A stretch of DNA of 64,000 nt from Siphonodentalium dalli (lineage: Eukaryota; Mollusca; Scaphopoda; Gadilida; Siphonodentaliidae): contig CP136065.1 in NCBI GenBank assembly GCA_032622095.1, forward strand, positions 241,097,530 through 241,161,529, read 5' to 3'. The notes below the pieces were generated by a model. That model saw nothing but the letters and a program-made list of their open reading frames with translations. It was not told the DNA's origin and made no database searches. Position numbers and translations under genes: made by a program. Positions 28,768-61,738 of this stretch are shown in pieces; the first letter of the stretch is position 1, and the number at the start of each line of letters is the position of its first letter.

Positions 28768-28952
28768 GAACATCATTAAAGTCATAATGGCCTCACCAGA
28801 AAATACGGTGGTAATTCGTATGAAGAGGGATTTTGACAGCATGATGTCTAATTGTTCAAACAGAAGCAGTAGATTCACTGGTAGTGCGTTCCTCCCATCA
28901 CTCGATTTGGATCAGACGAACATCTTTGATTCACCAAAGGAAAAGACAAATG
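28768..28952 (+). CDS. MAD1L1: MAD1L1 coding exon 1 (19-nt 5' UTR + residues 1-55)
   Basis: The acceptor ttttctag ends at 28767, so an untranslated exon must lie upstream. The ATG is at 28787. The exon ends ACAAATG|GTATGT with one nucleotide carried over. The N-terminal segment is polar, Ser-rich and not coiled coil, with ENTVV near the start as in human MAD1. Confidence 0.92.
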
Positions 28953-31900
28953 GTATGTAGAATATTAGTTCATAGTATGTAGAATATTAGTTCATACCAT
29001 GAATCTCCACTCTGGCTTACGCCCTAGAGATCATACTCCATCGTTCAAAACCTGGTAACTTTTTGAAGTTTAGACCCGTTCCCATTTAAAGGGAAAATTC
29101 TGGGACATGTATGCATATATTATAACATTTTATTTGATATATTTGCATGAAAATTGTACGAGAAAATCTCGAGGGCGATCGTTCTATTTATTGTATTCTG
29201 GTTTTGCTGCCATCTGTAAATATATTTATTCCCGTTGATATTTGACAAAGTTTGGTCACCTATGATGTCCATTTCCATTGGTACTCACACTTGGCATGTT
29301 GATAAATTTCTTATTAGTTCAGGCTTAACAAATCCCTGAAATAATGGATATTTGAGTGCCGTCTCCATTTAATAATGTATTTTACAATTTGTATTTATCT
29401 AAGTTCATGACTATGATTTCATCTAAATATGTGAGCCGATTTCGCTCTGCGTCGCTAACAATCTTGACATTTCCCCAGGTAATAAATTGAATATATATAG
29501 CAAAATCGGCTCACAAAAGTTGCTTAAAATAATGCACAGGCTGGGACCTTCGCATACAGTGAAATACATTAAGGAACATGTATTGGCTGAGAAATATATT
29601 ACCTACTTACTCTTTCAATGTTATACAAATTTTCCCCATCAGATCTTCAAAAAATTTTGAGGTTTTTCATCAGACCTCATGATCTCTACAGGGATGATGA
29701 GGTATGATCAAGTAGAATATAAACTTATATGTTAAATGTTTATATACTATTATGCTATGCATGCAGAAATGACTAGGCAGTTTGCAATTCTGTATCGTGG
29801 AGGATAACATGTCGTATCGTGTGAGTTGCAAGCCTGACTAGTGAGTCTGTCATTTAGTGCTGGGCGGTATTTTGGTATACCGATTATAATCAGTAATATT
29901 TTCAATACTGTTACTGTCATTTTATTTCCATAATCGGTAAACCGTGAAGACTGTATTATCGTGGTTACAGGTCATACCGGCCATAACCAGGTACATTGTG
30001 GTTTACCTTTATTGGAATACAAAGAAACTACTTGGTTTGTTTACACCACAGTTATCTTTTAGTTGAAAGAAACTGTTCATTCTTCACTTCTGTCACTTCT
30101 TTCCTGGTGACATTTGCCAAAAATGCATTCCATTGCTACCTTGGCCAAAATCCAGCCCAATATTATATTGCAAGTTATGATTGCATCATTCTGTGCTATT
30201 TTTAAACTACTGAATGCGTGGGATAGCTCATTATTTCCCGGGGTGTTATCGAGTGGGAATAATTTATCATGTTCATAAACGTGGATTTATATAATGTATG
30301 ATTTATAATAATTCAACTGAAAAGTGAATTATAGTTCTATAAGTTAAATACTTTGAAAGTAATACACCTTATTTTCCGCCATTTAATAAAAGCATCATAC
30401 TTATTCACTTCCGGCGAAACATTCCAATATCAAACTTAACAGCACGTGCTCTGTGCGACAGTGCAAGTCAGTGGGAGTTATCTCAAAGCTCTTGGATGTA
30501 TCCGCTGAATGATGCTTCCATATCTCGCAATTATTACTTGTGTTTGAGATCAGCATACCTTGTCATGAATCCATGCATGATGCATGCAAACAAATGATAC
30601 ATTGCCACAGTTTGTTAATCCATAATTTTATAAAACGGAGCGTTGGTGTGTGTGTGTTTCCTTATTTATTGTAAGCTGTGTAGCTACTTGATTTTCTCCA
30701 AAAAACAGTTGACTTGTGTACCAAACGATCACTACTTAATGGGGGTTTTAAGGGATTAGTTGAAATAATCAGTAATACCGTATGCCGCGGTATGGTTTTA
30801 GGATTACCGCGGTATTTTTATGCTTAAATACCGCCCAGCACTACTGCCATTGCAGAAAAAAGGTCCCCAGAGGGTGAATTTAGTGATTCTATCCTGCATA
30901 GCAGATATCATCACCAAATTCACCCTCTGGGGAACCCATTCTGCATGGCCTCATCTGCTATTGGAGACATAGACTCAGATTGAAGTTACCAAATGGTGAA
31001 TATTTGTGATGTACACTGGTTGGGAACCTTGATTATGCAATGTGTCGTCTGTCAATTTGGGGATATAGAGAAAATAAACTAAAAAATAAATAGAATCTAT
31101 GTGAAGAAGTTTCATAAGAAATTTTATAATAAAGAAACTTTCCAGAGAAGATGAGGCCTAAGCTGAATGAGGTCCCCATAGGGTGAATTTAGTTATGCTA
31201 GCCTGCTATGCGGGATAGCGTTCAATAAATTCCCCCTCTGGGGACCTCATTCTGCAAATGACAGGCACACTAAACTCAGGCTTGGTGAGTTGTGGAGAAA
31301 CTTGCTTCGTTTTGAAAACATTGGTTTACATGTATATCGGCAATTGGCATAAATTATTTCTACTCTATACAGCATCCAAATTTCATATTTCCTTTCATAT
31401 TTACGGCAAAAAACACTATAAAAATCAGTTGCATTCTTTATCCTACGAAAACCGCAATGAATTGATTCAACGCATATGTACAAACGGACCTATTTTCACA
31501 CAATGAAGCACTGATGATGTAATAATTTGCAGTGACGCACAACAATGTCAACTGTATGGCCGAGCTATTTAATTTTTGAAACAACATATTCAATATTCTT
31601 TTGTATGATAATTTCGTTATACAGGTTTCCGAGATTGGTATTCAAGTCTTGCTACATTCTCTGGGTTGTTTATTGACCATCTTGCAGACTGGTCGATAGA
31701 CTTCCAAGAGAAAGTAGCTCCACGTGAATATATATCTCGTATACCAGCAGCCACTGACAGCCTTCTTGGATTTTGCTCTTTTCATGTTTAAATCCTTTGG
31801 ACAACATCCCTTGTCTGATCGTCACTAAACTTCACATGGATCTTCGGGATGACCAGAAGATGGGAGTCATCTTATTTGTCCAAATTTCATTAAAAAACAT

Positions 31901-34900
31901 GGCCACTGGCAGCAATATTAGATTTTACTCTTTGCATGACTAAATCCTTTAGTTACACATAATGATACAGACCATCCCTCATTCAATCATCACCAAACTT
32001 CAATTTTATTGGAAAACATGGCCGCCAGTGGCCATCTTGGATTTTACTTTATATATAGCTCTTCATGTTGACATCTATAGTAGTATTACTTAGACATTTC
32101 AACTTTCCGCATTCCTAATCGCTCCATTGACTGTAACACAAGAAAGTATCCCTTCTCCATATTGAGCTACAGTGTCATTGACACTTTCATTATAATTTGC
32201 TGCATATTTCAGATGTATATACTTCCTACAATCCAATACAACTGAAGCATTGTTTTAACCCTTTACCCAACATAACGGCCCTGTGCCAATTCATTCTCTT
32301 ATATATGCGAGTCGACCATAGGTCGCCTCGCATATATAAGAGAATGCATTGGCTTAACACATTAAAAATTATAAAATTGTTAAAGAATGTAAGAATTTTT
32401 TTTTTTAGGCCAATGCATTCTCTTATATATGCGAGGCGACCTATGGTCGACTCGCGAGGCGACCTATGGTCGACTCGCATATATAAGAGAATGCATTGGC
32501 ACAGGGCATAACTGTAACTATCACAATGTGGTCAAGGAGCCGGTTCCAATGATATCCATATTTGTATGGTTTTATTGAGACAGACCCAAGATATTTTAGG
32601 CTGTTGAAGCTTTATTTGGCCGGTTTTGGTCGGTTTGTTGGGTAAAGGGTTAAACTAAACGCTGTTCAAGTGTTTATGAAAAAAGTCTTTATCAACCCCA
32701 CTGGAAAAGAGTTATATCAAGTTCTTGATTTATATCTGCAGCATTAGAAAAGGAACTGAAAAAGAAACAAGCAGATTTGATAAAGTCAAAGACAGAAATT
32801 ATCCAGCTTAAATCTGTCATATCCAATTTTGCGACCGATAACAAGAGAGCCAGAATAGAATCCGAGTTGGAGAACAAGTCTATTTATATGAGTAATGAGG
32901 TGAGAACAAGTCTATATACATGAGTAAATGAGGTGAGAACAAGTCTATAAACATGAGTAATGAGGTATGTGCTCACTTTCTTAGTGCATTCTCACTAAAA
33001 TTACCTCTGTAATCCGGAAACTCTCTATTCCGAACATCGGACGGCTTTTCTAGTCTAAAAGTGAACGAATACATTAATTTTTACCTCCGAAGTCCGAACG
33101 TGGAAAGCGATAACAAATTGACGCACATGCGTTAGATTTGACATGCTTGATGCTGAACTCGTGTTGCCTTTAGTGTATAGACTGGGGATCCTTTATAAGT
33201 TTAAATTTCTAGTCTATAAATTCAACTCTGAGTGGCCGTTTTCGCTCTGGCTCATTCGTTCTGACATGTTGATTAAAACTGTAATGGTGACAATACACCA
33301 CCACTGTGTACGTTTAGCTAATTAGTGTTTAGTTTTGACAGTGGTCGTAATAATAAGTCCAATTATTGATGTGAAAACAAAATGTCAGTGCTGTAATCTC
33401 CATGAAGTCACCATTGTTCACTCAATGTGTTAAATAAACATTCAGTTATCTAATCAGACACCTGTGGTTATAATCCGATTCGCCAAACAAAACACTGCTA
33501 ATTAATCGGTATGATTATTCAAGAGTACGAATCTACTATACTAACGATGCAACATTTTTAAACGACATTTTCAATCACTGTAACATCTATCATTTCCATG
33601 TTTCCTGTCTTATCTATACATGTATTACATCTTAATATACCATGGTTTTAATTCTTATTATAACATGATTTATCTATTGTTATTTAAATTTGATTCAGTA
33701 CTTTGTAGAATAAATTTTAATTAATCAATAATGAATTGGTTGTGCTTCAATTTAGCAAAGCGAGCTAAGATACCTTTGCAGGTTGGGAGAATTTACTCAA
33801 GAAAGCTAATCATCGGACACAAATTCAACAGTTTTGGCATTTAAGAAACTCCTAAAATTTAACTTGTGCTGTGGATTCTGTCACACTAATGGTAGATAAA
33901 TGTGTTATATACACAATGTGTTTGTAACGATTCATGTATCGCGACTCGACGACTTCGTGGCCATTCGGCGACCATGGTCACCTTGTCGCTATATGGCCAT
34001 GAAAACTAGCCTCGTCGCGAAACATGAATCTATACAAACACATTGTGTATATAACACATATATATCAAGCCTAGATATAGTGTGTCTGACATATGCAGAA
34101 TAAGGTTCCCAGAAGAGGAATTTCTCCCATAACAGTTGAGGCATAAGCAGAATGAGGTTCCCAGATAATTAATTTGGTGTGGCTAGCTCACCATGCAGGA
34201 CGACAGCCTTACTAAATTCACCCATCGGGGACCTCATTCTGCAAATATCAGACAATATATCCAGACTTGAACAATTTCTCCACTTTTGGAAGAAAAATGA
34301 GGGTCTGCATGTACTGAATTGACTCTCTCACATATGTCTGTCTGTCTGTCCAACCTGGTATATACATGTATCTCAGTCATGGGTTATCTGATCTAAATGA
34401 AAGTTGTTTGATGCTCCTCCAGCAGCAATCTTGGATCTCACATTTGAATTGATCAGCACACCATGCAGCACACATCTATTGGAGAAACTTTTGAAATGAA
34501 AATAATTTTTCATCTACACAATACAAATACTTTTATACTGGAACTTTTTTACTTTCCTTTTTCTTTATCATTCTATTAGCAGCATAAAATTAATGCCTCC
34601 CCATGTTGAGCTACAGATTCATTTATTATGGCCTTACATGTTCACTTTTTTTTTTGCAGAAAGAGAGAGAGAAACTGAATGATATCATGGTCCAGTTGAA
34701 CTTTTTGTCGAAGAAAGAAGAGGTCGCCCAAGCTGAAGTGGAGCAGAGCCGGAAGGAACTACTCCAGATGAAACATCGGCACGATGCAAAACTAAAGCAG
34801 ACGAGAAGAGATCATCTAGAAAAAGAGGAGGAGCATCAAAATGTAAGTTTTAACCCTTTGAGTGCCAGGGGCCGATGACCCTGGCCGATCTCATCGGCCC

Positions 34901-37900
34901 TAAATCGACAAAATAAGTCTGTTAAAGAATATAAGAATAAATTATTAAAATTGTAAAAAATTGTAAAAAAAAATAAATAAATGTTAGGCCAATGCATTCT
35001 CTTATATATGCGAGGCGACCTATGGTCGACTCGCATATATAAGAGAATGCATTGGTACAGGGATCGACCTGGCACTCAAAGGGTTAACCCTTTCATGACG
35101 GGAGCTGTATTGGTGCAGCATTAAAGATCCTGTGCTAATGCATTCTCTTATACATGCGAGTCTCCCATAGGAGATTGCGCTGGCTTATACGGTAAATATT
35201 GTTAGGCCCATGTATTCTTTTATATCTGCGAGGTTCTCTACATGAGACTCGCATATATAAGATATTGCATTGGTGCAGCATTAAAGATCCTGTGCCAGTG
35301 CATTCTCTTATATATGCGAGTCTCCCATAGGAGATTGCGCTGGCTTAGTGCCACCGCAGACGCTACGATTAAAATCGTAAGTGGGGAAAATCGTAGGTGG
35401 AGAAATCGTAGCTTGCCCGCAGATGCTACGGTGCTGCGATGTTTGCAGCTACGAATTTATCAACGTGATCGATCACATGATAGCAAAATGTTATACCCCA
35501 TTCTCCGCATTATGCAACTAAATACATATGGCATGTATCTCAATGTTCTAAACTAACAAGTTGATGTTGAAAGTTCAAGTGAAATTGAATATTTTTTTAA
35601 TTTTGACATTTTTGTACCTGTCAACTCAACAGGCTCAGCTGCCCCAATTGAATTTCAACAATTGTGGCAGCCCTCTACTCCTTGCCTGATATGTGGTATA
35701 GGCCTGCACTCCCTGCCGTGCCACATCTCCACCAATGTGGCCTCGTTTTTGTAAGTGCAAGAAGTTTGTAAACTTTGCGCCATTTTTGAATGTTTTCTTT
35801 TCGTGGTATTTACAACATGACCAGTGTGACAGTAGTCATGTGACAGTTGTCAAGGTCACGCCACGATTTTCCTGGTAAAATCAAACAGTGCTTGATTGCT
35901 ACGATTTGGCTACGATATTGTCGTGGGCATGTGCATTGGATGCTTCCTCCTGTGATTTTCCCCAATTACGATTTTAATCGCAGCATGTGCGGTGGCACTT
36001 AAACGGTCAAGGTAAATATTGTTTGGCCCATGTATTCTTTTATATCTGCAAGGTTCCCTACTGGAGACTCGGATATATAAGAGATTGCATTGGGCCATTG
36101 GTACATGGTTTTCGCAAAATTTCAGGACCATCAAAATGTAAGTTTGAACCCTTTGATTGAATTTACCAACTATTAAGCTCTGGAATTTTAATGAGCCACA
36201 TGAAATATGTGAAGCAAAATACACTTTATAGCTTTTACACCAAAACATAAAATCGTAAATAATCAGTATGTCAAGTGTTAGGTCAAGCAATCAGGTAATT
36301 AATATAGAGATATCCGTATATGTCAAATTATCGCAGACCACTTAAATGAGATAGCCGAGCTGAGATCATTATTGTTATATTTGTAGACAATCACCGACCA
36401 TTTAAATGAGATCGCCGACCTGAGATCATTAATATATATGTAGACAATCACCAACCATTTAAATGAGATAACCGAGCTGAGATCATTATTGTTATATTTG
36501 TAGACAATCACCAACCATTTAAATAAGATAGCCAACCTGAGATCATTATTGTTATATTTGTAGACAATCACCAACCATTTAAATGAGATCGCCTAGCTGA
36601 GATCATTGTTATATTTGTAGACAATCACCAAACATTTAAATGAGATCGCCGAGATCATTATTGTTATATTTGTAGACAATCACAGACCATTTAAAGGAGA
36701 TCGCCGACCTGAGATAATTATTGTTATATTTGTAGACAATCACCGAGCATTTAAATGAGATCGCCGACCTGAGATCATTGTTATATTTGTAGACAATCAC
36801 CAACCATTTAAATGAGATCGCCGACCTGAGATCATTGTTATATTTGTAGACAATCACCAACCATTTAAATGAGATCGCCGACCTGAGATCATTATTGTTA
36901 TATTTGTAGACAATCACAGACCATTTAAAGGAGATCGCCGACCTGAGATATTTATTGTTATATTTGTAGACAATCACCGAGCATTTAAAAGAGATCGCCG
37001 ACCTGAGATCACGTTTACTCACAGATCAGTCGGGAATGAATTTCTATGGAAACAAAATCGAGGAGCTATCAGCCCAGTTATTACTGAAAGAGAGGTAAGT
37101 TATTGAGGAGCTATCAGCCCAGTTATTACTGAAAGAGAGGTAAGTTAAATGTCTCAATCTTTGAATTCATTATAATTTCCGTAGTAATAATTGAAAGAGA
37201 GGTATGTTAAATGTCTCAATCTTTGAATTCATTATAATTTCCATAGTAATATTGAAAGAGAGGTAAGTTAAATGTCTCAATCTTTGAACTCATTATAATT
37301 TTAATAGTTATATAATGAAAAGGGCATATCAAATTTAATAAAATTGGGGACTTATCTAGGGGCAAACTTATGGCTCTGGCAAATTTAAATGCCAAGTGGA
37401 GAATTTTACCCCTACTCTCAAAGAGAATGGTGGTATCTTGGATTGTTTGCATCCAGTCTTCTATCCGTGTTCTCTGCACTATTTGGATTGTCATATTCTC
37501 AATAGGCATATCCCGATGGCCACAGGCCAGAGATGGGGGTGTGTTTCGGATGGGGTGTCACCCGTCCCACTGTAGGTGGGTCTGGGCAATTTTTGACAAT
37601 CCAATGCTCTTAGAGTGAATTTAGGGCATTAGTCTTATATTGTGCTATTGAGGTTTGTAAATTTAGTCATGTTTTAGATGGCTAATACTTAATTGCTTGT
37701 GATTTTCTGTATGCATGCTCATTGATCTGATAACTAAAGTCATGACCAAATTTAATTTGTTTTTACTCTCACAGCTTACTCATTGTACAGCACTGAAATA
37801 TTCTTTTGTTTTGAAAAGATTTGTTTCACTTTTAATGTTTCACATTTTTCATAGTCAAACCAATAATTTCATAGCATGTAATGCCATTTGAAAAGTCCTT

Positions 37901-52900: not shown

Positions 52901-55900
52901 TATATCAAGTGGTTATTATTGTTAATAGTAACCACTTGATTTTCGAGTTATCCATCTTACACCCGCAATTTGTCTGTTTGAGCACGAGGTTCTGGCCCAC
53001 ATCTCCAAAAATTAACAAATTTCAAAAATCAATATCTGATCACTCTGAGCTTTGATGGGTGGGTTCCTCGACTCGAATCAAATATGTTTTACCCCCAAAG
53101 CCAAAGAAATAGTAATTTATGAGCGTTTAATTGGATTGAGTACCAAATATATTGTGCCCATTGTTAGCTCAATATATACTTTTCTTTGATAACCATTTAA
53201 CCCTTTACCCAACAAACCGGCCAAAACCGGCCAAATAAAGCTTCAACAGCCTAAAATATCTTTGGTCTGTCTCAATAAAACCATACAAATATGGATATCA
53301 TTGGAACCGGCTCATTGACCACATTGTGATGGTTACAGTTATGCCCTGTGCCAATGCATTCTCTTATATATGCGAGTCGACCATAGGTCGCCTCGCATAC
53401 ATAAGAGAATGCATTGGCCTAAAAAAAATCTTTTTTTAACACTTTTTACCATTTTTTCTTACATTCTTAACAATTTTATCATTTTTAATGTGTTAAGCCA
53501 ATGCATTCTCTTATATATGCGAGGCGACCTATGGTCGACTCGCATATATAAGAGAATGCATTGGCACAGGGCCGTTCTGTTGGGTAAAGGGTTAAGAACT
53601 AAATACACTGTGCATCAGCCGTGTATTGTAAAATACTACAGATCTGTTGCTGTGGTCAAATTAAACTATACACGCCGATGTGCAGTGTATAGTAAAATAC
53701 TACAGATCTGTTGCTGTGGTCAAATTAAACTATACACGCCGATGTGCCGTGTGTGTATTTCTTTTGTAATTTGACTATGTTTTCGTAAAAATAGTTGTTG
53801 CAGAAATTGGTTCCAGAAACCCACTATGATATTCCAGTATTGATATGAGTGGTATGATTTTCCACTGAACAGTACTTCTCTTTTAACTTGATGTCACTAT
53901 TGAACGTCGACTCCTTTTCGTTGCCTCTCTGGCAAAGTTTTGCAGATAAGACTTATTTTTGTTCTATCTTAAATAAAATCAGTATTAGCAGGTAGCCATT
54001 AGATGTCTCTTTCTACAGTCTAGCACGATATTAACTAATTCACCTGTGGATTGAATTATGAGTATTGTGAAACAATTGCATTGATTGTACAAACATTTTT
54101 GTGGTATAATTCAGAACATTTAGAATTGTACCACAAAACTACATTAATATATCCATGAGAAAACATGCTACTGACAAATGAGCCTTTTATGCAAATACTA
54201 ATATTCCTTGATTTAAGGAAAGGGATAGTTATAGAAAGGTCATAGACAGTTATGAGAGTGAAGTGACAGTCAACATTGATCCAACAACCATCAACCGCAT
54301 CCAACAGCTGGAGGAGATCGTACAATCTTATCACACACATATAGAACAGCTTGAACATGACTTAGAACTACGTACTGGTACCACAGCACAGCAGACAGTC
54401 AGAGTGCAAAAGGTAAAATACTTATTGGCAACTTAGAGTCAAAAAGATGTAAGTAATGATGATGATGATGTGATGATGATGATGACGATGGACTGTTGAT
54501 GATAATGGATGGTGGACTGATGATGATGACGACGATGATTATGATAGTGATGACGATGTGATGATGATGACGACAATGATGATTATCGATGAAGATGATG
54601 ATGATGATGAGCATCCTGTGCCAGTCATTTACTGATATACAATGAAAAAATAGCAAGATGTGTTCTTTTGATACTAAAACGTCTTATCTTTACAACAAAT
54701 TCAACGAAATACAGTAATTCCCTAAACAATCGACTCCTTAACCACAGCAGAATTATGGGTAATTTTTCAGGATTTAGTTGGAAATATGGCTTGTTGCCAT
54801 TCATCGGAAAGCTCTCCGACTAAATTATGAAAAATTACCCATAATTCTGCTGTGGTTAAGGAGTCGATTATTTAGGGCATTACTGTAGCTCCTGTAAAAA
54901 GTCATAACAAATGAATTCTACAAAACAGCTCTGGCCAAAACTTATAAATTTGTTTGGTGTTACCACAGCAGCTTATTAGGTTGCCTAGGGACCAAGTTAT
55001 GTATGCTCAAAGGCGTGGTCTTACCTTAAATATGACCAAAATCAATGTTCTTTTGACTGTATTGAAGTGTATTTCTGAAACATACTTTATGTAGACATGT
55101 ATCAAATTATTCCCGAAAACAAATATTATAATCAGTTCTCTCACAAATCTCTTTGTTAGTATAAAAAAGTGAAGCCCCTGTTAATTTATTTTTAAAGTCT
55201 GTTTTTATTATCAGCCGCCTTTCCTGTCAATTGAAGAAGGCCTTATTAAATTTGTTTTAAGTTGTACATTAACTGAATTTAGATGAGATTCTGTTGAAAG
55301 ATATGTATGATAATAACAATCGATGCATATATCTAGTCAAGCCTCAAAATATTGTGCTGGACATTGCAGAAAGAGGTCCCAATAGGGTGAACAGCATGCT
55401 GAAGTCACCAAATTTATCCTCTGGGGACCTCATTCTGCTTCCGCCTCATCTGGTATGGGAACCTAGACTCAGATTTAAGTTCTCAGATGATGAAGAGATG
55501 GTAATGTGACCTATGAATTGCATTAAAATTATAGACATTTATGTCATACTAGTAATATTTTTTATTCGCAGCTTTTGTTTTCAGTCGTAAAACAATAAAA
55601 AACTTCCCTGCCTCAACATATTTTCCTGTCATAATACGTGAGAATACAGACATTTTTTCTTGTTTATTTTATTTCTAGTTAGAATACCAGTTACAACGAG
55701 CTGCACAGCCACAGTCCGTCGAGCCACAATCAAGCTCTGATCAGAGAATTATACTACAACTCAGGTGAGCCTATACCAGGTCCAGCACTTCCTCGATTCT
55801 ATTATAGTTATATTTATGTACTACTAGCTGGGTACTACTAGCTGGGGTACTACTAGCTGGGTACTACTAGCTGGGTACTACTAGCTGGGTATTACTAGCT

Positions 55901-58900
55901 GGGGTAACCGTCATTGCTCAGGTGAAGAATGCATAATTTATTTGTGGTCCTTCAAGTCAGTTAATACAATAATTAGTTATCTGGGGCAAACATCACCTAT
56001 TGCATGACTCTCCGAATAAAGTTACATCTATCTTTTAAGTTGATAATAAATGCTCTTCATTGCTAATTATTAGTGCCTCTTTAAATAATTTTGAGGTCAA
56101 CAGCACCTATCCCATGACATTCCCTTCATGATTCCCACATATCGTCTGAACTGATAGTAAACGCTCTTTATTGATCATATAATTTATTAGTCCCCTTTAA
56201 ATGAGGTCAAAGATGCCTATCCCACGACATTCCACTGGTCAGTTGACCCATATGTACCAATTATTAATGGCCCTTCAAAGTAATTTTAAACAATTATTAG
56301 TCATATGGGGTAAACAGAACCTATTGCATGACTCTCCGATAAAGTTACATCTATATTTTAAGTTGATAATAAATGCTTTTTATTGCTAATTATTAGTGCC
56401 TCTTTAAATCAACAGAACTTATCCCGTGACATTTCCTGCAACATTTTACTTTTGTGCACCAATGTTCCTACATATTTGTTGCTCATATTTGCCCCTTTAA
56501 GTCATCTTAGGTCAATGGCATCTATTTCATGACACTCTACTATAATTAATTATTTAGTTAAATTAATTAGTAGTGCCTTTTTAAGACATGTGAGGTCAAT
56601 GGGACCTATCTATTAAGATTCACAGGGTCAAATTACCCATATGTACCCATATGTTTCAGCTCCGAGGGTCCAACCGTTTGGTCGCCTCTAACCAAAATAT
56701 ATATAAAATAATGATTAGTGCCCTTTTATGACATCTCAGCAAATATCCTCAACATGCAGAGGGTTTCACATCACTTTGGGTAACCCTGCAAGTTCTCTTA
56801 TATTTGTGAGTCTCCCATATATAAGAGAATGCCCTGGCTAATAAGGTCATAGTTAATATTGTTATGCCAATGTTTTCTCTTATATATCTGAGGCTCCCTA
56901 TGAGAGACTCGCATATATAAGAGAATGCATTGGCACAGGATTTTTTGCAAAATTTCAGGAAGCTCCAGTCATGGAAGGATTAAGCACTTAGTCTTGGGGA
57001 TAAGCGCTATATAAGAAATATTTATTATTATTATTATTTTAACCCTTTACCCAACAGAACGGCCCTGTGCCAATGCATTCTCTTATATATGCGAGTCGAC
57101 CATAGGTCGCCTCGCATATATAAGAGAATGCATTGGCTTAACCCTTTACCCAACATAACGGCCCTGTGCCAATGCATTCTCTTATATATGCGAGTCGACC
57201 ATAGGTCGCCTCGCATATATAAGAGAATGCATTGGCACAGATTATAAAATTATAAAATTGTTAAAGAATGTAAGAAAAAATGGTAAAAAGTGTTAAAAAA
57301 AAGATTTTTTTTAGGCCAATGCATTCTCTTATATATGCGAGGCGACCTATGGTCGACTCGCATATATAAGAGAATGCATTGGCACAGGGCATAACTGTAG
57401 CTATCCCAATGTGGTCAAGGAGCCGGTTCCAATGATATCCATATTTGTATGGTTCTATTGAGACAGACCGAAGATATTTTAGGCTGTTGAAGCTTTATTT
57501 GGCCGGTTTTGGCCGGTTTGTTGGGTAAAGGGTTAACACATTAAAAATTAAAAAATTGTTAAAGAATGTAAGAAAAAATGGTAAAAAGTGTTAAAAAAAG
57601 ATTTTTTTTAGGCCAATGCATTCTCTTATATATGCGAGGCGACCTATGGTCGACTCGCATATATAAGAGAATGCATTGGCACAGGGCATAACTGTAACTA
57701 TCACAATGTGGTCAAGGAGCCGGTTCCAATGATATCCATATTTGTATGGTTCTATTGAGACAGACCAAAGATAATTTAGGCTGTTGAAGCTTTATTTGGC
57801 CGGTTTTGGCCGGTTTGTTGGGTAAAGGGTTAAATAACTATAATCAACATTATTGTCTATGCGGGTCTGTATAACTTTTTTGTCTTTTCTGAATCTTGAC
57901 TTCTAGATATGGAAATATCTACAATTAAGAAATAGGAATCACATTGTTAACATAAGATTGTCAATGATATAATTCTTACTTGCAGGGAAAAAGTAGCAGA
58001 GCTTGAAAAGAAATTGGAAAGTACTTTGGAAGCGAAAGAAATCCTAGAAGCCAGGATAGAACAACGGCATTTACAGGTATAACCAAAATCTCCCCACTGG
58101 GCAAACAACCAAATGTCAGCATTTAGGTGTTTATTATCAAGCAGTGAACCTCTTTGTATGACATTTTAATTGAAAAAAAAATGCACCAAAAATGCTCGAA
58201 CTAGGGTCCTGCGGATATTCGATGTTTGATTCGTTACTCAATTCGGTCTCTATATTCGATTCGTATTCGTTCGAAAATATTGGTTTCGAAAATTGTTGAA
58301 TATCCGGACGTACATGATATAGGCGTTCATAATGGTCCATTCTAAGACTCTTTGTTAATATCTCAACCAACAGTCGCCCAACATGGTTGTTGATACCAAT
58401 AACAAATGGAAACCGATTGTATGATATGTGAATTTTCAACTAATTTGCTTGAAGACCACCTAATATCTTAATTATAAAGTATGTAATGTCTAAATAATCG
58501 ACACCTTAACCACAGCAGAATTATGGGTAATTTTTCAGGATTTAGTCAGAATATGGCTTGTTGCCATTCATCAGAAAGGTCTCACTGAGAGCTTTCCGAT
58601 GAATGGCAACAAGCCATATTTCCGACTAAATCCTGAAAAATTACCCATAATTATGCTGTGGTCAATGAGTCGATTATTTAGGGCATTACAGTACTTGAAT
58701 TTCTGAAGTGAACAGTTATATTCATCGAAATCCAGGCATCAACCCGCAGCCCTGTCCCATTTCGTAATTTACAAATCTAAAAATAGTCGCTTGGAGATCT
58801 GATACATAGGAGTTTTCCGATGTCAATAATACATTGCAGCTTGTTTTACAAAATTTACAGCATTTTGTTTAACTTAGAGATACAATACAATATATTTCAT

Positions 58901-61738
58901 ACAGAATCATTGTCAATCACACCACAACCTGCTTAATAGTAACTTCCCCACAACCCCACGGTGCTCACCCTCCCCGTTTTCCATGGCATAAAAGCACATT
59001 ATTTCCATTCACATGTCACAATTCTAGGCATAAATGCTGGCCACAACAATTTGTGTATATCGGATATCAGGCTACTGTTTTTTTTAAATCACAGTTTTCA
59101 AGCAGTCACTATTTCCTGTTGATGCATACGATCATTTGCCTGTGCGATAAAATTGAGTTTACCCACTGTAAACAGCTGTATATGAATTTATGTGCATACT
59201 ATTTGTCATGGAAGTTAACATTGACATGTAAATAGGAACGAGTCATTTTGGGGTCATTCGGCCAAAATAACATGGCTGCCAGCGGCCATCTTGGATTTCA
59301 AAATACAATCCATTAGCATGGGCTACAGGCTAAACTGTTTGTCTGATCATCATGAAATTTTTCATTTATGTTAATATTGACATTCTAAGGTGTTTTAAGC
59401 CGAACTCATTGCAAAAACAGTCAAAAAGACTTGCAGGAAAAAATTGTTCGTTGGTCCCATCGACCCGCCCCGGCATACGTGCCCGAAAAAAAAATCCCCC
59501 CCCCCCCCCCCCCCCCCCCCCCGCCTGAACACTGAATTTTTATTTATTTTGCCTAATATACACAATTATATGTTCCTCATCCAGGGAGATTTCGATCCAA
59601 CAAAGACTAAAGTTCTCCATCTTAGAATGAATCCGGCAGCAGTCGCTGAGCAGAAGAGGAACGAGGAGATACGGAGGCTACTAGAAGAGAACGAGAGACT
59701 GAAACAACGGGTAAAGATACTGGAGGAAGCCAAGGGTAAAGCAGAGGACATCACGCTACAAGTGGAGGAGAGACTACAGGAGCCAGGGTGCAGCAAAGAT
59801 GTCGAAGGTAAATTAATTATCTATGGAATACTATTAGGACCACTTCCTAAAGGCAGCCGCCGAAAGCAACAATTTGTTGGAGGAATTTTTTGAAAATTTA
59901 CAGACATGTTTAGGATCACTTCGAGATGGGAGCTATTGAATAACATTAACATTTCGAATTAAGGCAGAAAAATAATAAACCTCAGCGGAAAGCCATTTTG
60001 GTGGGTGATACTCTGGGTGGTGGACTTGTTTCTTTTAAAAAGATATTTCGTGGGGAAGTGAATTTGTGGATCAGATATCCACATAAACACTTCCTACAAT
60101 AGTAAGTTTATAACATCTTTTAGTAGACATTATCGAGAAATCAGACTCCTGGTAATCAGGTACCGAAAGGGATTTATAACGCAATCAGCACACTTAGTAA
60201 CAGCTACTATCTTCATTTCACACTCTGGTGAGGTATCGTTTTATGTAACCTGCACATGATGAAACAATTAACCCTTTATTAATTGACTAACTCATTGAAC
60301 ATTGTTTATACAAACTAGTATAGCAGGGATCAGACGATGTTGTAAATAAACAATGGTATCAATTATGGATAAGCCACTGACAAATTAAGAATGTTTCATC
60401 TCGTCTTCCATGTTTTTTGTCAACTCATTGCCGAAAACAGACTTTATTCCCAATCTTCATTTCCATCTCATAAATTGAGTTTTACTTTATCAACTCTGAG
60501 TCAATTATTTCGTTGGATGTTGATTTTGTTGTTGGTCAAACGGATGAAATCAACATATAATAGACCCCCACGAATAAAAAGGATTTTACAGTACCTAGTG
60601 ATATTTATACTATGTCTGGTCTTTTCTCCACCTGTAAAGCTGACATTGTGAAAGCAGCTGAAATGACGATTAACACCAATAAACCAAGCTGATAAATTTA
60701 ATGGACTTTCTTCTGCCCTAGCAATAAATATTTCAATTAACCATGTGGATGCCGTGTATATATGTTGATTTTTATTAAACATATTTCATTGTAACACATT
60801 TATTAGAAAGGGATTACAGCATAAGGTTTTACGTATAAGTAAGTTAATAACAAACTTATCTCGCTATACTTTCCAGATATGAAGTCACAGATTGCCAGTG
60901 CTGAGTTGAAGAATAAGAGACTTCTTGAAGCATTCCAGAAGACTAGTCGCGAGTATCGGGAGATAGTGTACCAGCTTACTGGCTATAGGATAGATAGATG
61001 TAGCAGTAATCAGTACAAACTCCTGAGTATGTACTCCGAATCTCCCGACGATTTCCTCATGTTCAAGGTGAGTTGAATTTCAATACAAACTCCTGAGTAT
61101 GTATTCCGAATCTCCCGACGATTTCCTCATGTTCAAGGTGAGTTGAATATCAGTACAAACTTCTCAGCATGTACTCCGAATCTCCCGACGATTTCCTCAT
61201 GTTCAAGGTGAGTTGAATATCAGTACAAAGTTCTCAGCATGTACTCCGAATCTCCCGACGATTTCCTCATGTTCAAGCTGAGTTGAATATCAGTACAAAC
61301 TCCTCAACATGTACTACGAATCTCCCAACGGTTTCCTCATGTTCAAGGTGAGTTGAATATCAGTATAAACTCCTCAACATGTACTACGAATCTCCCGACG
61401 ATTTCCTCATGTTCAAGGTGAGTTCAGTACAAACTCCTGTCGTGCAGGATATCCTCACTAAATTCACCCTCTGGGACCTCATTCTGCAAATGTCAGGCAC
61501 ACATTTGCAGGCTTGGTTCATACAGATGAACATGGTTAATCTACGATTGTCAATCATTTGTCATTCATTTCTTTTGCAGCAAAGCAGCTCTGGTGAAATA
61601 CAGATGTTAGCCACAGACTTCTCAGCACGTGTTCCCGACATGATTGAGGAATATTTACAGAATCAGGATTGTATTCCAGCGTTTATTAGTGCATTGACAA
61701 TGAGGCTGATCGCAAATAGCACTGTACAAGTCGAGTAG
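28787..61738 (+). CDS. MAD1L1: MAD1, spindle assembly checkpoint protein (16 coding exons)
   Basis: MAD1 holds MAD2 at unattached kinetochores and nuclear pores and templates the MAD2 conversion that delays anaphase. Exons: 28787-28952, 32742-32899, 34660-34842, 36970-37094, 38067-38148, 40831-40961, 42640-42754, 45478-45533, 45755-45841, 46927-47071, 54218-54412, 55679-55764, 57986-58076, 59585-59807, 60877-61067, 61580-61738. They total 2193 nt, 730 aa plus stop (human 718). All phases join. Residues about 50-540 and 560-630 are coiled coil with heptads and many Glu/Lys. The Mad2-interacting motif is at 547-557 (KTKVLH..MNP). The C-terminal RWD-type domain is about 620-730 (QLTGYRID, QDCIPAF). 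The start is set by ENTVV matching the human N-terminus and by a good Kozak context (A at -3, G at +4). Oddities: RLL at 629-631 in place of RLK, and repeated splice junctions. Identification is very secure; small border shifts are possible. Confidence 0.95.
28980..29600 (+). repeat. diverged copy of the 1080-5640 / 44150 repeat family
   Basis: 'cttacgccc.agagatcatactcca', 'aac.tttttg' and the region around 'aaaatcggctcacaaaagt' to 'gggacctt.' follow the order seen at 4085-4140 and 5370-5430. It lies in intron 1 of MAD1L1 and is non-coding. Confidence 0.55.
29829..31284. mobile_element. hAT-type MITE (CAAGCCTGA ends) split by another hAT-type element
   Basis: The ends CAAGCCTGACTAGTG and CACTAAACTCAGGCTTG are flanked by a perfect 8-bp duplication GTGAGTTG (29821-29828 and 31285-31292). 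The interior has the palindromic block 'aggtccccagagggtgaatt'..complement twice. A 989-bp element sits inside it (29855-30843). Confidence 0.85.
29855..30843. mobile_element. nested hAT-type element, TIR TAGTGCTGGGCGG
   Basis: TIR TAGTGCTGGGCGGTATTT at left and its complement at right. The 8-bp duplication has one mismatch (CTGTCATT 29847-29854, CTGCCATT 30844-30851). Subterminal 'aataccg' inverted blocks are present. No transposase is recognised. Removing it restores 'ctgtcatttgcag' of the host MITE. Confidence 0.82.
31293..32254. other. MAD1L1 intron 1 sequence, low-copy-looking
   Basis: No coding exon is supported. 31860-32060 carries 'atggccactggcagcaatat..gattt' and 'catggccgccagtggccatc' blocks, related to 59265-59300, so at least part is repetitive. 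Confidence 0.4.
32259..32649. mobile_element. piggyBac-type MITE, reverse orientation to 28074
   Basis: CCCTTTACCCAACATAACGG .. TTGGGTAAAGGG between TTAA 32255-32258 and 32650-32653. It carries two palindromes, the second with an extra copy of 'tatggtcgactcgcgaggcg' in its centre. It lies 92 nt before MAD1L1 exon 2. Confidence 0.87.
32742..32899 (+). CDS. MAD1L1: MAD1L1 coding exon 2 (residues 56-108)
   Basis: The acceptor atatctgcag and donor GAG|gtgaga bound a Lys/Glu-rich coiled-coil frame with KRARIESELE, like KRARVELE in human MAD1. The exon end and its donor are copied twice more downstream (to 32970). The first donor is chosen because the others read into a stop. Confidence 0.9.
32871..32970 (+). 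repeat. triplicated exon-2 end plus splice donor
   Basis: 'gaacaagtctat.ta.atgag' followed by 'gtgaga', 'gtgaga' and 'gtatgt' occurs three times in tandem. The first copy is the real exon end; the others lie in the intron. Use of later donors would add a TGA soon after the first junction. Confidence 0.85.
33899..34062. repeat. palindromic MITE, arms about 45 bp
   Basis: 'tgtgttatatacacaatgtg' and its complement form the outer stem, with 'attcatgt.tcgcgac' continuing it. The loop holds GC-rich 'ccattcggcgaccatgg'-like text. Confidence 0.7.
34067..34275. mobile_element. hAT-type MITE of the CAAGCCT group
   Basis: Left end CAAGCCTAGATATAGTGTG, right end CAATATATCCAGACTTG, with the internal 'cagaat.aggttcccag'..'gggacctcattctgca' palindrome. 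No clear target duplication is visible. Confidence 0.65.
34660..34842 (+). CDS. MAD1L1: MAD1L1 coding exon 3 (residues 109-169)
   Basis: Poly-T acceptor (ttttttgcag), phase 0 at both ends, donor AAT|gtaagt. The frame is pure coiled coil (KEREKLN .. KEEEHQN). A piggyBac-type MITE starts only 8 nt after the donor GT. Confidence 0.92.
34854..35083. mobile_element. piggyBac-type MITE, TIR CCCTTTGAGTGCCAGG
   Basis: TIR CCCTTTGAGTGCCAGG, with a complementary right end CCTGGCACTCAAAGGG. TTAA at 34850-34853 and 35084-35087. One 68-bp-type palindrome is inside. It is inserted 8 nt after the exon 3 donor. Confidence 0.85.
35088..36125. mobile_element. second piggyBac-type palindromic element, adjacent and split
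   Basis: It starts at the shared TTAA (35084-35087) with CCCTTTCATGACGGG. It holds several decayed palindromes ('gcattaaagatcctgtgc', 'ggcccatgtattcttttata') and is interrupted by a Harbinger-like MITE. The right end is unclear and near 36125. At 36130-36155 it abuts 'atcaaaatgtaagttt', a copy of the exon 3 end and donor. Confidence 0.55.
35348..35998. mobile_element. PIF/Harbinger-like MITE, TTA target duplication
   Basis: The ends GTGCCACCGCA and TGCGGTGGCAC continue inward with 'gctacgattaaaatcgtaa'-like inverted blocks. The 3-bp duplication TTA (35345-35347 and 35999-36001) fits PIF/Harbinger. 651 bp, non-coding. Confidence 0.75.
36331..37014 (+). repeat. 12-unit tandem array of exon-4 acceptor plus exon start
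   Basis: Units of about 57-60 bp each hold 'tatatttgtag|acaatcacc', 'catttaaatgagatcgccga' and 'cctgagatca'. Exon-like starts are at 36387, 36444, 36504, 36564, 36621, 36676, 36736, 36793, 36850, 36910 and 36970, after a degenerate unit near 36331. The last unit is the true exon 4. A two-unit block with 'cacagacc' then 'caccgagc' occurs twice, so duplication went through larger steps too. Minus-strand open frames here are repeat artefacts. Confidence 0.93.
36970..37094 (+). CDS. MAD1L1: MAD1L1 coding exon 4 (residues 170-211)
   Basis: Acceptor tatatttgtag, donor GAGAG|gtaagt, ending in phase 2. The acceptor with the first 45 nt of the exon forms the last unit of a 12-unit tandem array upstream, and its 3' end is also duplicated downstream. 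Only this unit has the full exon (ITEHLKEIADL .. LLLKER). Confidence 0.88.
37055..37310 (+). repeat. repeated exon-4 end and donor
   Basis: 'gagctatcagcccagttatt' with 'actgaaagagag|gtaagt' occurs twice (donors at 37095 and 37140). A second, about 62-bp unit 'gaaagagag|gta.gttaaatg' plus 'tctcaatctttgaa' then gives further donors at 37202 and 37263. Confidence 0.88.
38067..38148 (+). CDS. MAD1L1: MAD1L1 coding exon 5 (residues 211-238)
   Basis: Acceptor atccctcag; the first G completes Arg211. The donor AAG|gtcatt is weak at +3 to +5 but is the only one that keeps phase with exon 6. Coiled coil (AEEMRSDIAELEQYQ). Confidence 0.88.
38726..40044 (+). mobile_element. deletion derivative of a hAT transposon
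   Basis: Ends CAGAGATGAAAG and CTTTCATCTCTG with a perfect 8-bp duplication GTCAACCT (38718-38725 and 40045-40052). The element keeps only an N-terminal transposase remnant and lies in intron 5 of MAD1L1. Subterminal 'ttccggaatt' and 'gccggc' inverted blocks are visible. Confidence 0.85.
39211..39578 (+). pseudogene. hAT transposase N-terminal remnant
   Basis: The frame FKWSWLQEKD..GDYLSDFL..LCLNCQK looks like the BED/TTF-like start of hAT transposases (FKWSWL, then a C..C pair). It then shifts frame near 39380 (A-rich 'ccaaaaaaac') into a Lys-rich tail. The catalytic core is absent. Confidence 0.6.
40831..40961 (+). CDS. MAD1L1: MAD1L1 coding exon 6 (residues 239-282)
   Basis: Acceptor ttcatcacag, donor TTAAG|gtagga. 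The frame ELELKLSRIEEE .. KLRDENDYLR aligns with the human segment around KDLEQKLSLQEQ..LKQLREESAHL. Confidence 0.92.
41100..41510 (+). repeat. imperfect tandem repeat, unit about 170 bp
   Basis: 'ataacttg..caa', 'caaccaatttcattcatat', 'ggtatat' and 'aaaaccagatttgt' recur in order from about 41140, 41310 and 41475. It is intronic (MAD1L1 intron 6). Confidence 0.7.
41882..42115. mobile_element. hAT-type MITE, 8-bp TSD GTTCCAGT
   Basis: Ends (T)AAGCCTTGAAATAGTGT and its complement; perfect duplication GTTCCAGT (41874-41881 and 42116-42123). The interior holds two 'gaatgaggt..ccc'/'gggacctcattc' palindromes. 234 bp. Confidence 0.85.
42241..42475. mobile_element. decayed piggyBac-type palindromic element
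   Basis: Two decayed palindromes and the right end 'cccgtcatgacagggTTAA' (42472-42475) relate it to the element at 35088. The left TTAA is degraded. Confidence 0.65.
42480..42620. mobile_element. mariner-like palindromic MITE, right end lost at exon 7
   Basis: After TA (42478-42479) it reads CAGCAATGCCCTAAAT and continues as in the full copies at 54712 and 58482. The right arm stops after 'aacaagcc' and runs into the polypyrimidine tract of the exon 7 acceptor. Confidence 0.7.
42640..42754 (+). CDS. MAD1L1: MAD1L1 coding exon 7 (residues 282-320)
   Basis: Acceptor tttttcattttcag, donor GAG|gtattt. Coiled coil (AIQENNLLLKEQ .. KLQVDNE). A truncated MITE ends about 20 nt before the acceptor, so branch-point sequence may come from it. 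Confidence 0.92.
42882..43255. mobile_element. hAT-type MITE, partial (two palindromic blocks)
   Basis: Blocks at 42887-42975 and 43139-43232 pair 'aggtccccagagggtgaatt' with its complement. The right end 'gcacactaaattcagacttg' is present; no CAAGCC left end is visible. The middle part matches 30950-31080. Confidence 0.65.
43466..43852 (+). repeat. invertebrate repeat with CGCCCGT..ACGGGCG start
   Basis: 'tacgcccgtttgaaaaaacg' and 'ggcgtattatg' form a hairpin, followed by 'gtccgtccatccgtcc' and two similar about 150-bp halves ('gataactttagattga.tcga'). It ends near 'gccacgccccgatggcgtg', a second hairpin. The terminal hairpin suggests a rolling-circle-like element, but this is not proven. 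Confidence 0.5.
44150..44440 (+). repeat. uninterrupted copy of the 1080-5640 repeat
   Basis: It aligns in order with 1110-1157, 1686-1705, 4049-4080 and 5505-5620, and lacks the three insertions found there. It therefore serves as an empty-site reference. Confidence 0.7.
44584..45010 (+). repeat. 57-bp minisatellite, seven units
   Basis: Marker 'gggaccag' (one copy 'gggacca') recurs every 56-58 bp (44621 to 44964), with 'gaagtcacttctct' in each unit. The period is close to a multiple of 3, which explains open frames in several phases. Confidence 0.9.
45128..45256 (+). repeat. tandem duplication of about 65 bp
   Basis: 'cccatttataaaaccaagat' to 'accattataataaaaaaata' occurs twice in a row with near identity. 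Confidence 0.85.
45478..45533 (+). CDS. MAD1L1: MAD1L1 coding exon 8 (residues 321-339)
   Basis: A 56-nt microexon between acceptor aactttacag and donor TTCGG|gtaagt. It encodes AMKQKIERWETKDIKQKFG, matching human LLAKLQSWERLDQTMG in position and in the conserved Trp. Confidence 0.9.
45550..45690 (+). repeat. intronic minisatellite of about 50 bp, about three units
   Basis: 'aagaaatgattacatgtagt' plus 'tgtaatattgat' repeats directly after the exon 8 donor. Unlike the arrays at exons 2, 4 and 15 it does not include exon sequence. Confidence 0.85.
45755..45841 (+). CDS. MAD1L1: MAD1L1 coding exon 9 (residues 339-368)
   Basis: Acceptor tttttcctag, donor ACCGT|gtgagt. SPNELLKRFGELQSSE corresponds to human TPEDLSRFVVELQQRE, the non-heptad break in the MAD1 coiled coil. 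Confidence 0.92.
46011..46320. mobile_element. hAT-type MITE, left part
   Basis: Starts CAAGCCTTGAAATAGTGTG, then 'catttgcagaatgaggt'. The body matches 62100-62340. No right CAAGCC end is seen. Confidence 0.65.
46589..46700 (+). ncRNA. 5S rRNA-like segment (pseudogene or 5S-derived SINE head)
   Basis: 'gaagttaagcaa', 'cggttagtccttggatgg', 'gtgaccg' and 'ccgggtgctg' follow the order and spacing of the internal promoter and 3' half of metazoan 5S rRNA. The first third of 5S is poorly preserved ('ggtcagggtcgttagacgc'), and there are indels such as an extra base in 'ggcttgggattcc'. It is unlikely to make functional 5S. The box A and C elements could still drive RNA polymerase III, as in 5S-derived SINEs. 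It is intronic in MAD1L1, same strand. Confidence 0.75.
46927..47071 (+). CDS. MAD1L1: MAD1L1 coding exon 10 (residues 368-416)
   Basis: Acceptor tattttccag, donor AAG|gtgtgt. Ends IKRLRKKCLLVSK, equivalent to human ARRLQKRVLLLTK, which reads on into ERDSYRK of exon 11. Confidence 0.93.
47107..47528. mobile_element. piggyBac-type MITE, TIR CCCTTTCAGTGCCAGG
   Basis: TTAA at 47103-47106 and 47529-47532; left CCCTTTCAGTGCCAGG, right CCTGGCACCGAAAGGG. One palindrome is present. The left part ('gccgatctcattggccctaa') is longer than in the 34854 copy. Confidence 0.85.
48040..49540. other. no gene seen inside the inverted-repeat structure
   Basis: Unique-looking sequence with short open frames only. 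No splice-supported frame found. Confidence 0.35.
49550..51715 (-). repeat. five dispersed copies of a 150-190 bp unit, coding-like on minus strand
   Basis: Units near 49559-49745, 50506-50720, 51165-51345, 51376-51535 and 51556-51713 share 'cttccccatggtgcag.ggcc', 'gatggggtcca' and 'ggaatcgtaataccttcggg'. On the minus strand each reads like YPEGITIPGD..DPIL..GHCTMGK, but copies differ by 4-nt indels, so the frame is not conserved. Between copies, 50791-51090 (minus) reads CDAEKHVKIDANRIGCIRLG and similar, which I do not recognise. It may be a decayed mobile-element gene. Confidence 0.6.
51090..51147 (+). repeat. purine (A/G) tract
   Basis: Almost only A and G (aaaaagaagaaaagaaaaag and similar). 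It interrupts the minus-strand coding-like frame as a poly-Phe/Ser run. Confidence 0.8.
51716..52530. other. no gene seen
   Basis: AT-rich intronic sequence. Near 52352-52366 there is a short G/C run. Nothing else is recognised. Confidence 0.35.
53201..53591. mobile_element. piggyBac-type MITE, same subfamily as 28074
   Basis: TTAA at 53197-53200 and 53592-53595; CCCTTTACCCAACAAACCGG at left, CGTTCTGTTGGGTAAAGGG at right. Two 68-bp palindromes. It is very similar to 28074-28454 and in the same orientation. Confidence 0.88.
53605..53752 (+). repeat. tandem duplication of about 70 bp
   Basis: 'aaaatactacagatctgttg' to 'ctatacacgccgatgtgc' occurs twice, immediately after the MITE. Confidence 0.85.
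54218..54412 (+). CDS. MAD1L1: MAD1L1 coding exon 11 (residues 417-481)
   Basis: Acceptor cttgatttaag, donor AAG|gtaaaa, phase 0 both sides. ERDSYRKVIDSYESEVT matches human ERDGMRAILGSYDSELT. It follows the longest intron (7.1 kb). Confidence 0.94.
54450..54615 (+). repeat. GAT trinucleotide-rich tract
   Basis: Many GAT units with GAC, TGAT and GGAT interruptions, 37 nt after the exon 11 donor. The poly-His minus frame is an artefact. Confidence 0.85.
54712..54885. mobile_element. mariner-like palindromic MITE (TA-flanked, CAGTAAT ends)
   Basis: TA at 54710-54711 and 54886-54887, ends CAGTAATTCCCTAAA and TTTAGGGCATTACTG. The arms pair over most of their length ('ttatgggtaatttttcagga'). 174 bp. 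Confidence 0.78.
55336..55500. mobile_element. hAT-type MITE, left part, diverged
   Basis: CAAGCCTCAAAATATTGTG, then 'gacattgcag.aagaggtccc' and 'ctctggggacctcattctgc'. No right end is seen. Confidence 0.55.
55679..55764 (+). CDS. MAD1L1: MAD1L1 coding exon 12 (residues 482-510)
   Basis: Acceptor attttatttctag, donor CTCAG|gtgagc. A short Gln/Ser/Pro-rich interruption (QPQSVEPQSSSDQ) of the coiled coil. Confidence 0.88.
55823..55905 (+). repeat. minisatellite, unit about 15 bp (tactactagctggg)
   Basis: About six units with small length changes, 60 nt after the exon 12 donor. Confidence 0.9.
55970..56640 (+). repeat. diverged tandem repeat, unit about 120-330 bp
   Basis: 'gttacatctat.ttttaagtt' with 'gataataaatgct' and 'attattagtgcctctttaaa' occur at 56021 and 56343. 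'ctatcccatgaca' and 'cccctttaa' variants recur between and after. Higher-order duplication with decay. Confidence 0.65.
56783..56985. mobile_element. decayed palindromic-core element
   Basis: Palindromes 'ctcttatatttgtgagtctc' and 'gccaatgttttctcttatat'..complement, with right end 'ccagtcatggaaggattaa'. Relative of 35088 and 42241. Confidence 0.6.
57043..57829. mobile_element. piggyBac-type MITE (outer copy)
   Basis: TTAA at 57039-57042 and 57830-57833. The element is split at its internal 'ggcTTAAcacatt' by a second copy. Without the insert it would match 32259-32649 in layout. Confidence 0.87.
57142..57532. mobile_element. piggyBac-type MITE nested in a copy of itself
   Basis: TTAA at 57138-57141 and 57533-57536; CCCTTTACCCAACATAACGG .. 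TTGGGTAAAGGG. It sits exactly in the TTAA of the outer copy's spacer. Its own spacer has a small deletion ('ggcacagattataaaatt'). Confidence 0.88.
57986..58076 (+). CDS. MAD1L1: MAD1L1 coding exon 13 (residues 510-540)
   Basis: Acceptor cttacttgcag, donor CAG|gtataa. Coiled coil EKVAELEKKLES .. EARIEQRHLQ, placed just before the Mad2-binding segment as in human. Confidence 0.92.
58482..58691. mobile_element. mariner-like palindromic MITE
   Basis: TA at 58480-58481 and 58692-58693. Ends TGTAATGTCTAAAT and ATTTAGGGCATTACA. Arms of about 100 bp pair nearly throughout. It is the most complete of the three copies. Confidence 0.75.
59489..59522 (+). repeat. C homopolymer tract
   Basis: A run of about 33 C, 62 nt before exon 14. 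It may stall polymerases or form quadruplex on the minus strand, and its length may be mis-assembled. Confidence 0.9.
59585..59807 (+). CDS. MAD1L1: MAD1L1 coding exon 14 (Mad2-interaction motif, residues 541-615)
   Basis: Acceptor ttcctcatccag, donor GAAG|gtaaat. GDFDPTKTKVLHLRMNPAAV is the Mad2-interacting motif and its flanks (human DYDQSRTKVLHMSLNPTSV). The KVLH core that threads through the MAD2 safety belt is intact. Confidence 0.96.
59808..60876. other. MAD1L1 intron 14, no feature recognised
   Basis: No MITE ends or exons found. Short open frames are not supported. Confidence 0.4.
60877..61067 (+). CDS. MAD1L1: MAD1L1 coding exon 15 (residues 615-678)
   Basis: Acceptor ctatactttccag, donor TTCAAG|gtgagt. 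SAELKNKRLLEAFQK and YQLTGYRID match human SAELKNQRLKEVFQT and YTLTGYQID, except that Lys of RLK is Leu. The exon's last about 60 nt plus donor are repeated five more times downstream. Confidence 0.95.
61008..61430 (+). repeat. six-unit 70-bp array of exon-15 end plus splice donor
   Basis: Exon 15's last about 60 nt ('gtactccgaatctcccgacg' .. 'ctcatgttcaag') with donor 'gtgagt' is repeated every 70 bp. Junctions are at 61068, 61138, 61208, 61278 (mutated to CT), 61348 and 61418. The first is the true exon end. Each later copy reads FK-V-S-stop at its donor. Confidence 0.94.
61440..61513. mobile_element. right-end fragment of a hAT-type MITE
   Basis: 'actaaattcaccctctggg'..'cattctgcaaatg.caggcac' and 'tttgcaggcttg' lie between the repeated donors and exon 16. 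Confidence 0.65.
61580..61738 (+). CDS. MAD1L1: MAD1L1 last coding exon 16 (residues 679-730)
   Basis: Acceptor ttcttttgcag, stop TAG at 61736-61738. EIQMLATDFSARVPDMIEEY and QDCIPAFISALTMRL correspond to the C-terminal end of human MAD1 (METEF-like strand and QDSIPAFLSSLTLEL), completing the RWD-type fold. Confidence 0.95.
   Translation, partial: QSSSGEIQMLATDFSARVPDMIEEYLQNQDCIPAFISALTMRLIANSTVQVE

Follow-up and report, generated by a model that had tools for sequence, protein, structure and literature searches.

The analyzed window is a stretch of 64,000 nucleotides (G000:C5:241097530-241161529) from a 2.23 Gb genome in nine contigs. It holds a MAD1 gene (MAD1L1) with 16 coding exons on the forward strand at 28768..61738, identified by profile HMM matches to PF05557, the Pfam MAD family. 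All positions below are window positions on this strand unless a control locus is named. Exon borders are predicted, from the HMM matches and from splice sites read by hand from the DNA alone: exon 1 (acceptor 28768, ATG 28787), exons 2–4 (32742-32899, 34660-34842, 36970-37094), exons 5–8 (38067-38148, 40831-40961, 42640-42754, 45478-45533), exons 9–12 (45755-45841, 46927-47071, 54218-54412, 55679-55764) and exons 13–16 (57986-58076, 59585-59807, 60877-61067, 61580-61738). Where a border is present in several copies, splicing the model at the innermost one gives a single open frame of 730 residues, which matches PF05557 over positions 1-660 of 661 (E 1.5e-122). Exon 15 matches the solved MAD1 chains 7b1f and 4dzo. 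A search of 28000-62500 against Rfam found no family at the gathering threshold, including at a stretch of intron 9 (~46570-46720) that we take to resemble a 5S rRNA-derived short element.

Tandem arrays at MAD1 splice borders

Arrays touch 5 of the 31 MAD1 splice borders: the donors of exons 1, 2, 4 and 15 and the acceptor of exon 4. Their units of 22-70 bp fall in the minisatellite range. The original prediction had described arrays at the 3' ends of exons 2, 4 and 15 and at the 5' end of exon 4, and Tandem Repeats Finder places them there. The exon 2 donor array (32870..32966, 33 bp x 3.0) has 30 nt of exon and ~3 nt of intron per unit. At the exon 4 acceptor, a 60 bp unit is repeated 11.5 times (36337..37011), giving 11 acceptor copies, of which only the last (36970) opens the full frame. 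Two overlapping arrays share the exon 4 donor, one of 45 bp x 2.0 (37060..37147) and one of 61 bp x 3.0 (37130..37313) whose unit is 10 nt of exon and 51 nt of intron. The exon 15 donor array (61009..61424, 70 bp x 5.9) repeats 59 nt of exon with 11 nt of intron, and its decoy donor at 61278 is mutated from GT to CT. The exon 1 donor array (28953..28996, 22 bp x 2.0), again called by Tandem Repeats Finder, was overlooked by the first reading. Its start coincides with the first base of the intron, and the duplication therefore takes in the donor's intronic half, with a second GTATGT donor copy; its unit holds intron bases only.

The gene contains 14 arrays of period 20-130, a count that leaves out two arrays of periods 178 and 297. 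Five of the 14 lie on borders where random placement gives 0.64 (P 0.0004). A stricter rule, by which the unit must contain exon bases, drops exon 1 and leaves four against the same expectation (P 0.003).

The arrays differ in sequence from border to border. Units of the exon 15 and exon 4 acceptor arrays, the two covered by a search of the 2.2 Gb genome (very common words skipped), match their own locus only and so look like separate local events, in line with the earlier proposal that the arrays arose independently. Within arrays, exon 15 units are 86-97% identical to each other and exon 4 acceptor copies 81-100%. Mean identity among the exon 4 copies follows no clear trend with distance. 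Two exon 4 pairs lying four units apart are nearly identical (36676/36910, 100%; 36736/36970, 98%), which would fit an exchange of blocks.

The end of exon 3 is also duplicated, as the original prediction had noticed. Its last bases with the donor and the start of a fold-back element (34829..34864) have a stray second copy 1295 bp downstream (36124..36159), with 33 of 36 bases the same. Fold-back elements sit between the two copies. This palindromic element (CCAATGCATTCTCTTATATATGCGAG...) is repeated in MAD1 introns and upstream of the gene, at ~28200-28440, 32280-32500, 34980-35060, 47410-47490, 53490-53580 and 57060-57840; one element begins a few bases past the exon 3 donor. Outside MAD1, the window carries a 122 bp x 5.7 array (4412-5184) whose unit includes a GTATGT donor-like motif.

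Border arrays in other genes

Control exons were cut with 400 bp on each side from HMM matches chosen by rank: 109 of 123 kinesin matches (80 in a first set, 29 as hold-out), 40 of 73 SNF2, 20 of 48 ABC and 11 of 85 myosin. Hand curation removed near-identical paralogues and long matches that cross many stops; three pairs of neighbouring stretches overlap (L023/L178, L052/L160, L051/L072). For the first 140 exons, a simple splice score applied near the HMM ends gave the borders, except for 16 that were read by hand; of these 16, 14 agree with the automatic call. In the hold-out, HMM ends served as borders for 38 of 40 exons. The ambiguous array L063 (95 bp x 1.9) was counted as non-border, L078 and L101 were left out of the count as they adjoin a border without duplicating it, and the copy of the L051 array in L072 was dropped.

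Arrays were found at 11 of 180 donors (L012, L032, L035, L051, L053, L059, L067, L074, L079, L137 and L162) and at 5 of 180 acceptors (L051, L082, L105, L106 and L165), or 16 of the 360 sampled borders outside MAD1. At L053, a 34 bp unit repeated 12.6 times includes the end of the exon in the kinesin LVDLAG motif. At L105, the repeated unit joins an SNF2 acceptor to 78 bp of the exon and is present in 3.8 copies (L105 1-481; G000:C6:220293735-220294654). The further copies show up as separate HMM matches, which means that arrays of this kind can raise counts made exon by exon. Three close kinesin paralogues on contig C7, with 107 of 108 exon bases in common, share a 30 bp donor array in 11.5, 14.5 and ~14.7 copies, the last figure being computed from L051 plus L145; the three could also be unmerged haplotypes. 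As a reference for array density, arbitrary genome positions contain 11 merged arrays of period 20-130 in 50 kb. The intron upstream of the L051 kinesin exon carries a further array (L051 1-132, 37 bp x 3.6). By eye, its unit looks similar to the LGNVIS codons of that exon; it may be exon sequence that has been displaced, as with the stray end of MAD1 exon 3.

MAD1, with 5 of 31 borders, is richer in arrays than the sample (P 0.018), but the gene was chosen for its arrays. The original prediction had named a high rate of border arrays across the genome as the observation that would count against a pattern peculiar to MAD1. That is now partly the case: since other genes carry such arrays too, they look like a habit of this genome and not like a special control layer on MAD1.

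Origin and growth of the arrays

Minisatellite-like duplications of exon-intron borders have been described in amphioxus, where they were termed ‘mirages’ (PMC3087553; PMC3902484). The accounts, in the portions available, report them in Adh3, PGBD5 and troponin C, with unit lengths of 10 to 160 bp (PMC3087553; PMC3902484), and in a globin gene with 6 versus 3 copies between haplotypes (PMC3087553). RT-PCR data for Adh3 and globin suggest regular splicing (PMC3087553), and the authors of the PGBD5 account infer undisturbed splicing for their own gene (PMC3902484). Among the matches listed for ‘mirage’, the splice-border sense occurred for amphioxus genes only. The present arrays are alike in that units straddle the border, hold a donor or acceptor and occur at either exon end, with units that differ from gene to gene. 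Copy number varies here between the close kinesin paralogues; at MAD1, read from one assembly, no instability was seen. Tandem units containing the border itself are found at the donors of MAD1 exons 2, 4 and 15 and at the acceptor of exon 4. The differences are that the host is not a lancelet and that the arrays here are known from DNA alone. A rate over 360 borders and a donor bias were measured here, and neither appears in the available portions of the amphioxus accounts (PMC3087553; PMC3902484). MAD1 is thus one case of a wider genome habit, of a known kind, outside lancelets.

We consider it probable that the border arrays are mirage-type minisatellites, that is, duplications that span a border by chance, are tolerated and drift in copy number. 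A short local tandem duplication (~20-130 bp) would happen to span an exon-intron border, and unequal exchange or slippage would later alter the number of copies. The exon-proximal copy, meaning the first donor or the last acceptor, would be the one spliced, leaving the remaining copies intronic. Since an intact border is kept in every case, the duplication would be tolerated, and the arrays would be neutral. Donors may tolerate duplication better than acceptors: duplicate acceptors lie upstream of the real acceptor and would compete with it, whereas duplicate donors, lying downstream of the real donor, would compete little, in keeping with the donor bias. The mirage reading is supported by the intact MAD1 frame, the arrays in other genes, the paralogue copy numbers and the two units private to their loci.

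Chance placement alone leaves an excess of donor and multi-copy arrays unexplained. The 53 sampled arrays of period 20-130 were placed at random 3000 times, with wholly exonic positions barred. Donors were crossed 11 times against 2.89 expected (P 0.0003) and acceptors 5 times against 2.92 expected (P 0.17). Donor arrays of at least 2.9 copies number 9 against 1.16 expected, a count reached in 0 of 3000 placements, whereas those below 2.9 copies are near background (2 seen, ~1.7 expected by subtraction). Border arrays also have more copies than others (median 3.45 vs 2.0, P 0.004). The process favouring exon-intron borders that the original prediction had offered as one idea keeps some standing, and gains from these counts in that border arrays exceed random placement, at donors above all. 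The excess is uneven across sets: the first kinesin set has 9 array donors among 80, while SNF2 plus ABC (1 of 60) and the hold-out (1 of 40, again a kinesin exon) do not repeat it. Enrichment at borders is therefore likely, but not proven, across the whole genome.

From the kinesin multi-copy excess, a border-linked expansion step may act on top of chance. Under such a scheme duplications would arise at a uniform rate and arrays holding a working donor would grow to many copies, through a link to splicing or transcription; candidates are open chromatin, RNA-DNA hybrids, bound U1, or extra U1 sites that aid exon definition. We regard this as possible but doubtful. It would account for the multi-copy donor arrays, for low-copy arrays staying near background and for the higher copy number at borders, and it agrees with non-border arrays showing no enrichment in donor-like motifs. 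Against it, the first kinesin set supplies 8 of the 9 multi-copy donor arrays, the donors outside it giving 2 of 100, and donor strength shows no consistent sign, array donors being weaker in the controls and not in MAD1. The broader statement, that in a non-chordate duplications including a donor become multi-copy many times more often than intronic ones, is one we put forward still more tentatively. If it is true, donor-linked growth would imply expansion coupled to splicing or transcription across the genome, or selection for extra U1 sites.

Three further ideas were tried and rejected. The first is the donor motif as a duplication hotspot. Among non-border arrays, donor-like motifs (P<0.1) occur in 3 of the 21 multi-copy rows, one of the 3 being a second sighting, in L072, of the L051 donor array, and in 5 of the 43 others; with no excess there, the motif by itself is unlikely to be the cause. 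The second is rescue of weak donors. Array donors in the controls score lower than the rest (2.03 vs 3.86, P 0.017), in a comparison where control borders had been picked by score, but those of MAD1 do not (4.1, 5.5, 8.0 and 8.1). The third is a regional hotspot near exons, for which the profile of array cover is at most suggestive: on the donor side, the final 30 bases of the exon have 0.064, against 0.084-0.088 at up to 60 nt from the donor and 0.051 at 300-350 nt, and on the acceptor side it declines towards the exon.

Decoy sites and alternative readings

The original prediction had said that every duplicate splice site it read through in MAD1 leads soon to an in-frame stop, and such a stop follows 10 of 10 decoy acceptors and 11 of 11 decoy donors, the mutated copy at 61278 included. 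At exons 1, 2, 4 and 15 the frame stays open only through the first donor copy, and at the exon 4 acceptor only through the last copy. An intact full-length MAD1 protein thus needs the innermost copies, which, judged from the reading frame, are probably those spliced in the cell. A message spliced at a decoy would acquire a stop, as in poison exons and other unproductive splicing, and the prediction had gone on to raise the idea of a decoy or poison-splicing layer on this checkpoint gene.

We find it very improbable that the arrays form such a layer, tuning MAD1 through nonsense-mediated decay. The uniform stops speak for it, but ordinary donors meet stops about as often: among 127 array-free donors, 59% meet an in-frame stop within 30 nt, 75% within 60 nt and 84% within 90 nt. 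Stops after decoys do not go beyond chance, so the stop test says little about a poison function. In the control arrays, a decoy donor precedes any stop in 4 of 10 (L035, L051, L137 and L053, the last by a single base). Arrays of the same kind are present in unrelated genes, and one MAD1 decoy, in the exon 15 array, is already broken. Divergence from the functional copy is lower in the splice cores (15 of 760 cells) than in the rest of the unit (217 of 3263; P 5e-8), which would favour the layer. Compared from decoy to decoy only, conservation shows a trend short of significance (11 of 146 variable sites in cores vs 95 of 753 elsewhere, P 0.09; sliding-window control P 0.088). After this drop, selection on the decoys is no more than possible; we take the stronger signal to be exaggerated, both by changes in the functional copy and by the ancestry that the copies share. 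The MAD1 arrays accordingly resemble poison exons in the stop that decoy use would bring, and differ from them in showing no sign of gene specificity and no significant decoy conservation. At L035, which has a donor-spanning array of 90 bp x 3.8 (499-841), reading on from the exon meets no stop until 295 nt beyond the donor, so decoy donors there could add residues and not a stop.

Slightly less probable again is that the arrays are remains of new introns, born by tandem duplication of AGGT sites. The units do carry splice sites, and the model has been proposed for amphioxus globins (PMC3087553) and a potato gene (PMC4974935), as far as the available portions of those reports go. At none of the five MAD1 borders, however, does the array span the intron from donor to acceptor: 155 bp (exon 15), 753, 1494, 1693 and 3745 bp (exon 1) of intron are left beyond it. 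The likeness to AGGT-based intron gain, as described in the part of that source available (PMC4974935), is that extra splice sites arise by tandem duplication; the difference is that in MAD1 no new intron is evident and other sequence is kept beyond the array. Least likely of all is that the arrays are an assembly artefact, absent from the animal's DNA: tandem arrays are hard to assemble and copy numbers may be inexact, but the exon 15 and exon 4 copies have diverged, arrays occur at many unlinked loci, and paralogues share a unit while differing in its number.

Earthworm metallothionein genes offer a further comparison with the mirage-type arrays preferred here. They have minisatellites in the first intron with monomers of 25-216 bp, and duplicated exon copies missing from transcripts are also mentioned (PMC12783039). 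Both cases place tandem minisatellites inside an invertebrate gene, and the portion of that account available describes no units across a splice border (PMC12783039).

Mirages had previously been described in a handful of lancelet genes, going by the available portions of the reports (PMC3087553; PMC3902484). That an animal other than a lancelet has them at several per cent of the borders sampled suggests that animal genes have repeatedly gained redundant splice sites in this way. The arrays are natural tests of splice-site competition, with near-identical donors or acceptors in a row on one transcript. If the donor bias is genome-wide, the mutation or survival of tandem repeats would be linked to the position of working splice sites, and donor-linked array growth is the part most worth a genome-wide count.

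PF14830 (mollusc haemocyanin) gave no match, which decides nothing. Innexins are reported as one in lancelets, lampreys and most tunicates and three in jawed vertebrates, in the part of the source available (PMC8769644). With 17 single-frame innexin matches, this genome is not that of a lancelet and most likely not that of a chordate. The matches lie on contigs C1, C4 and C6 and fall into two groups, 12 scoring strongly and 5 less so.
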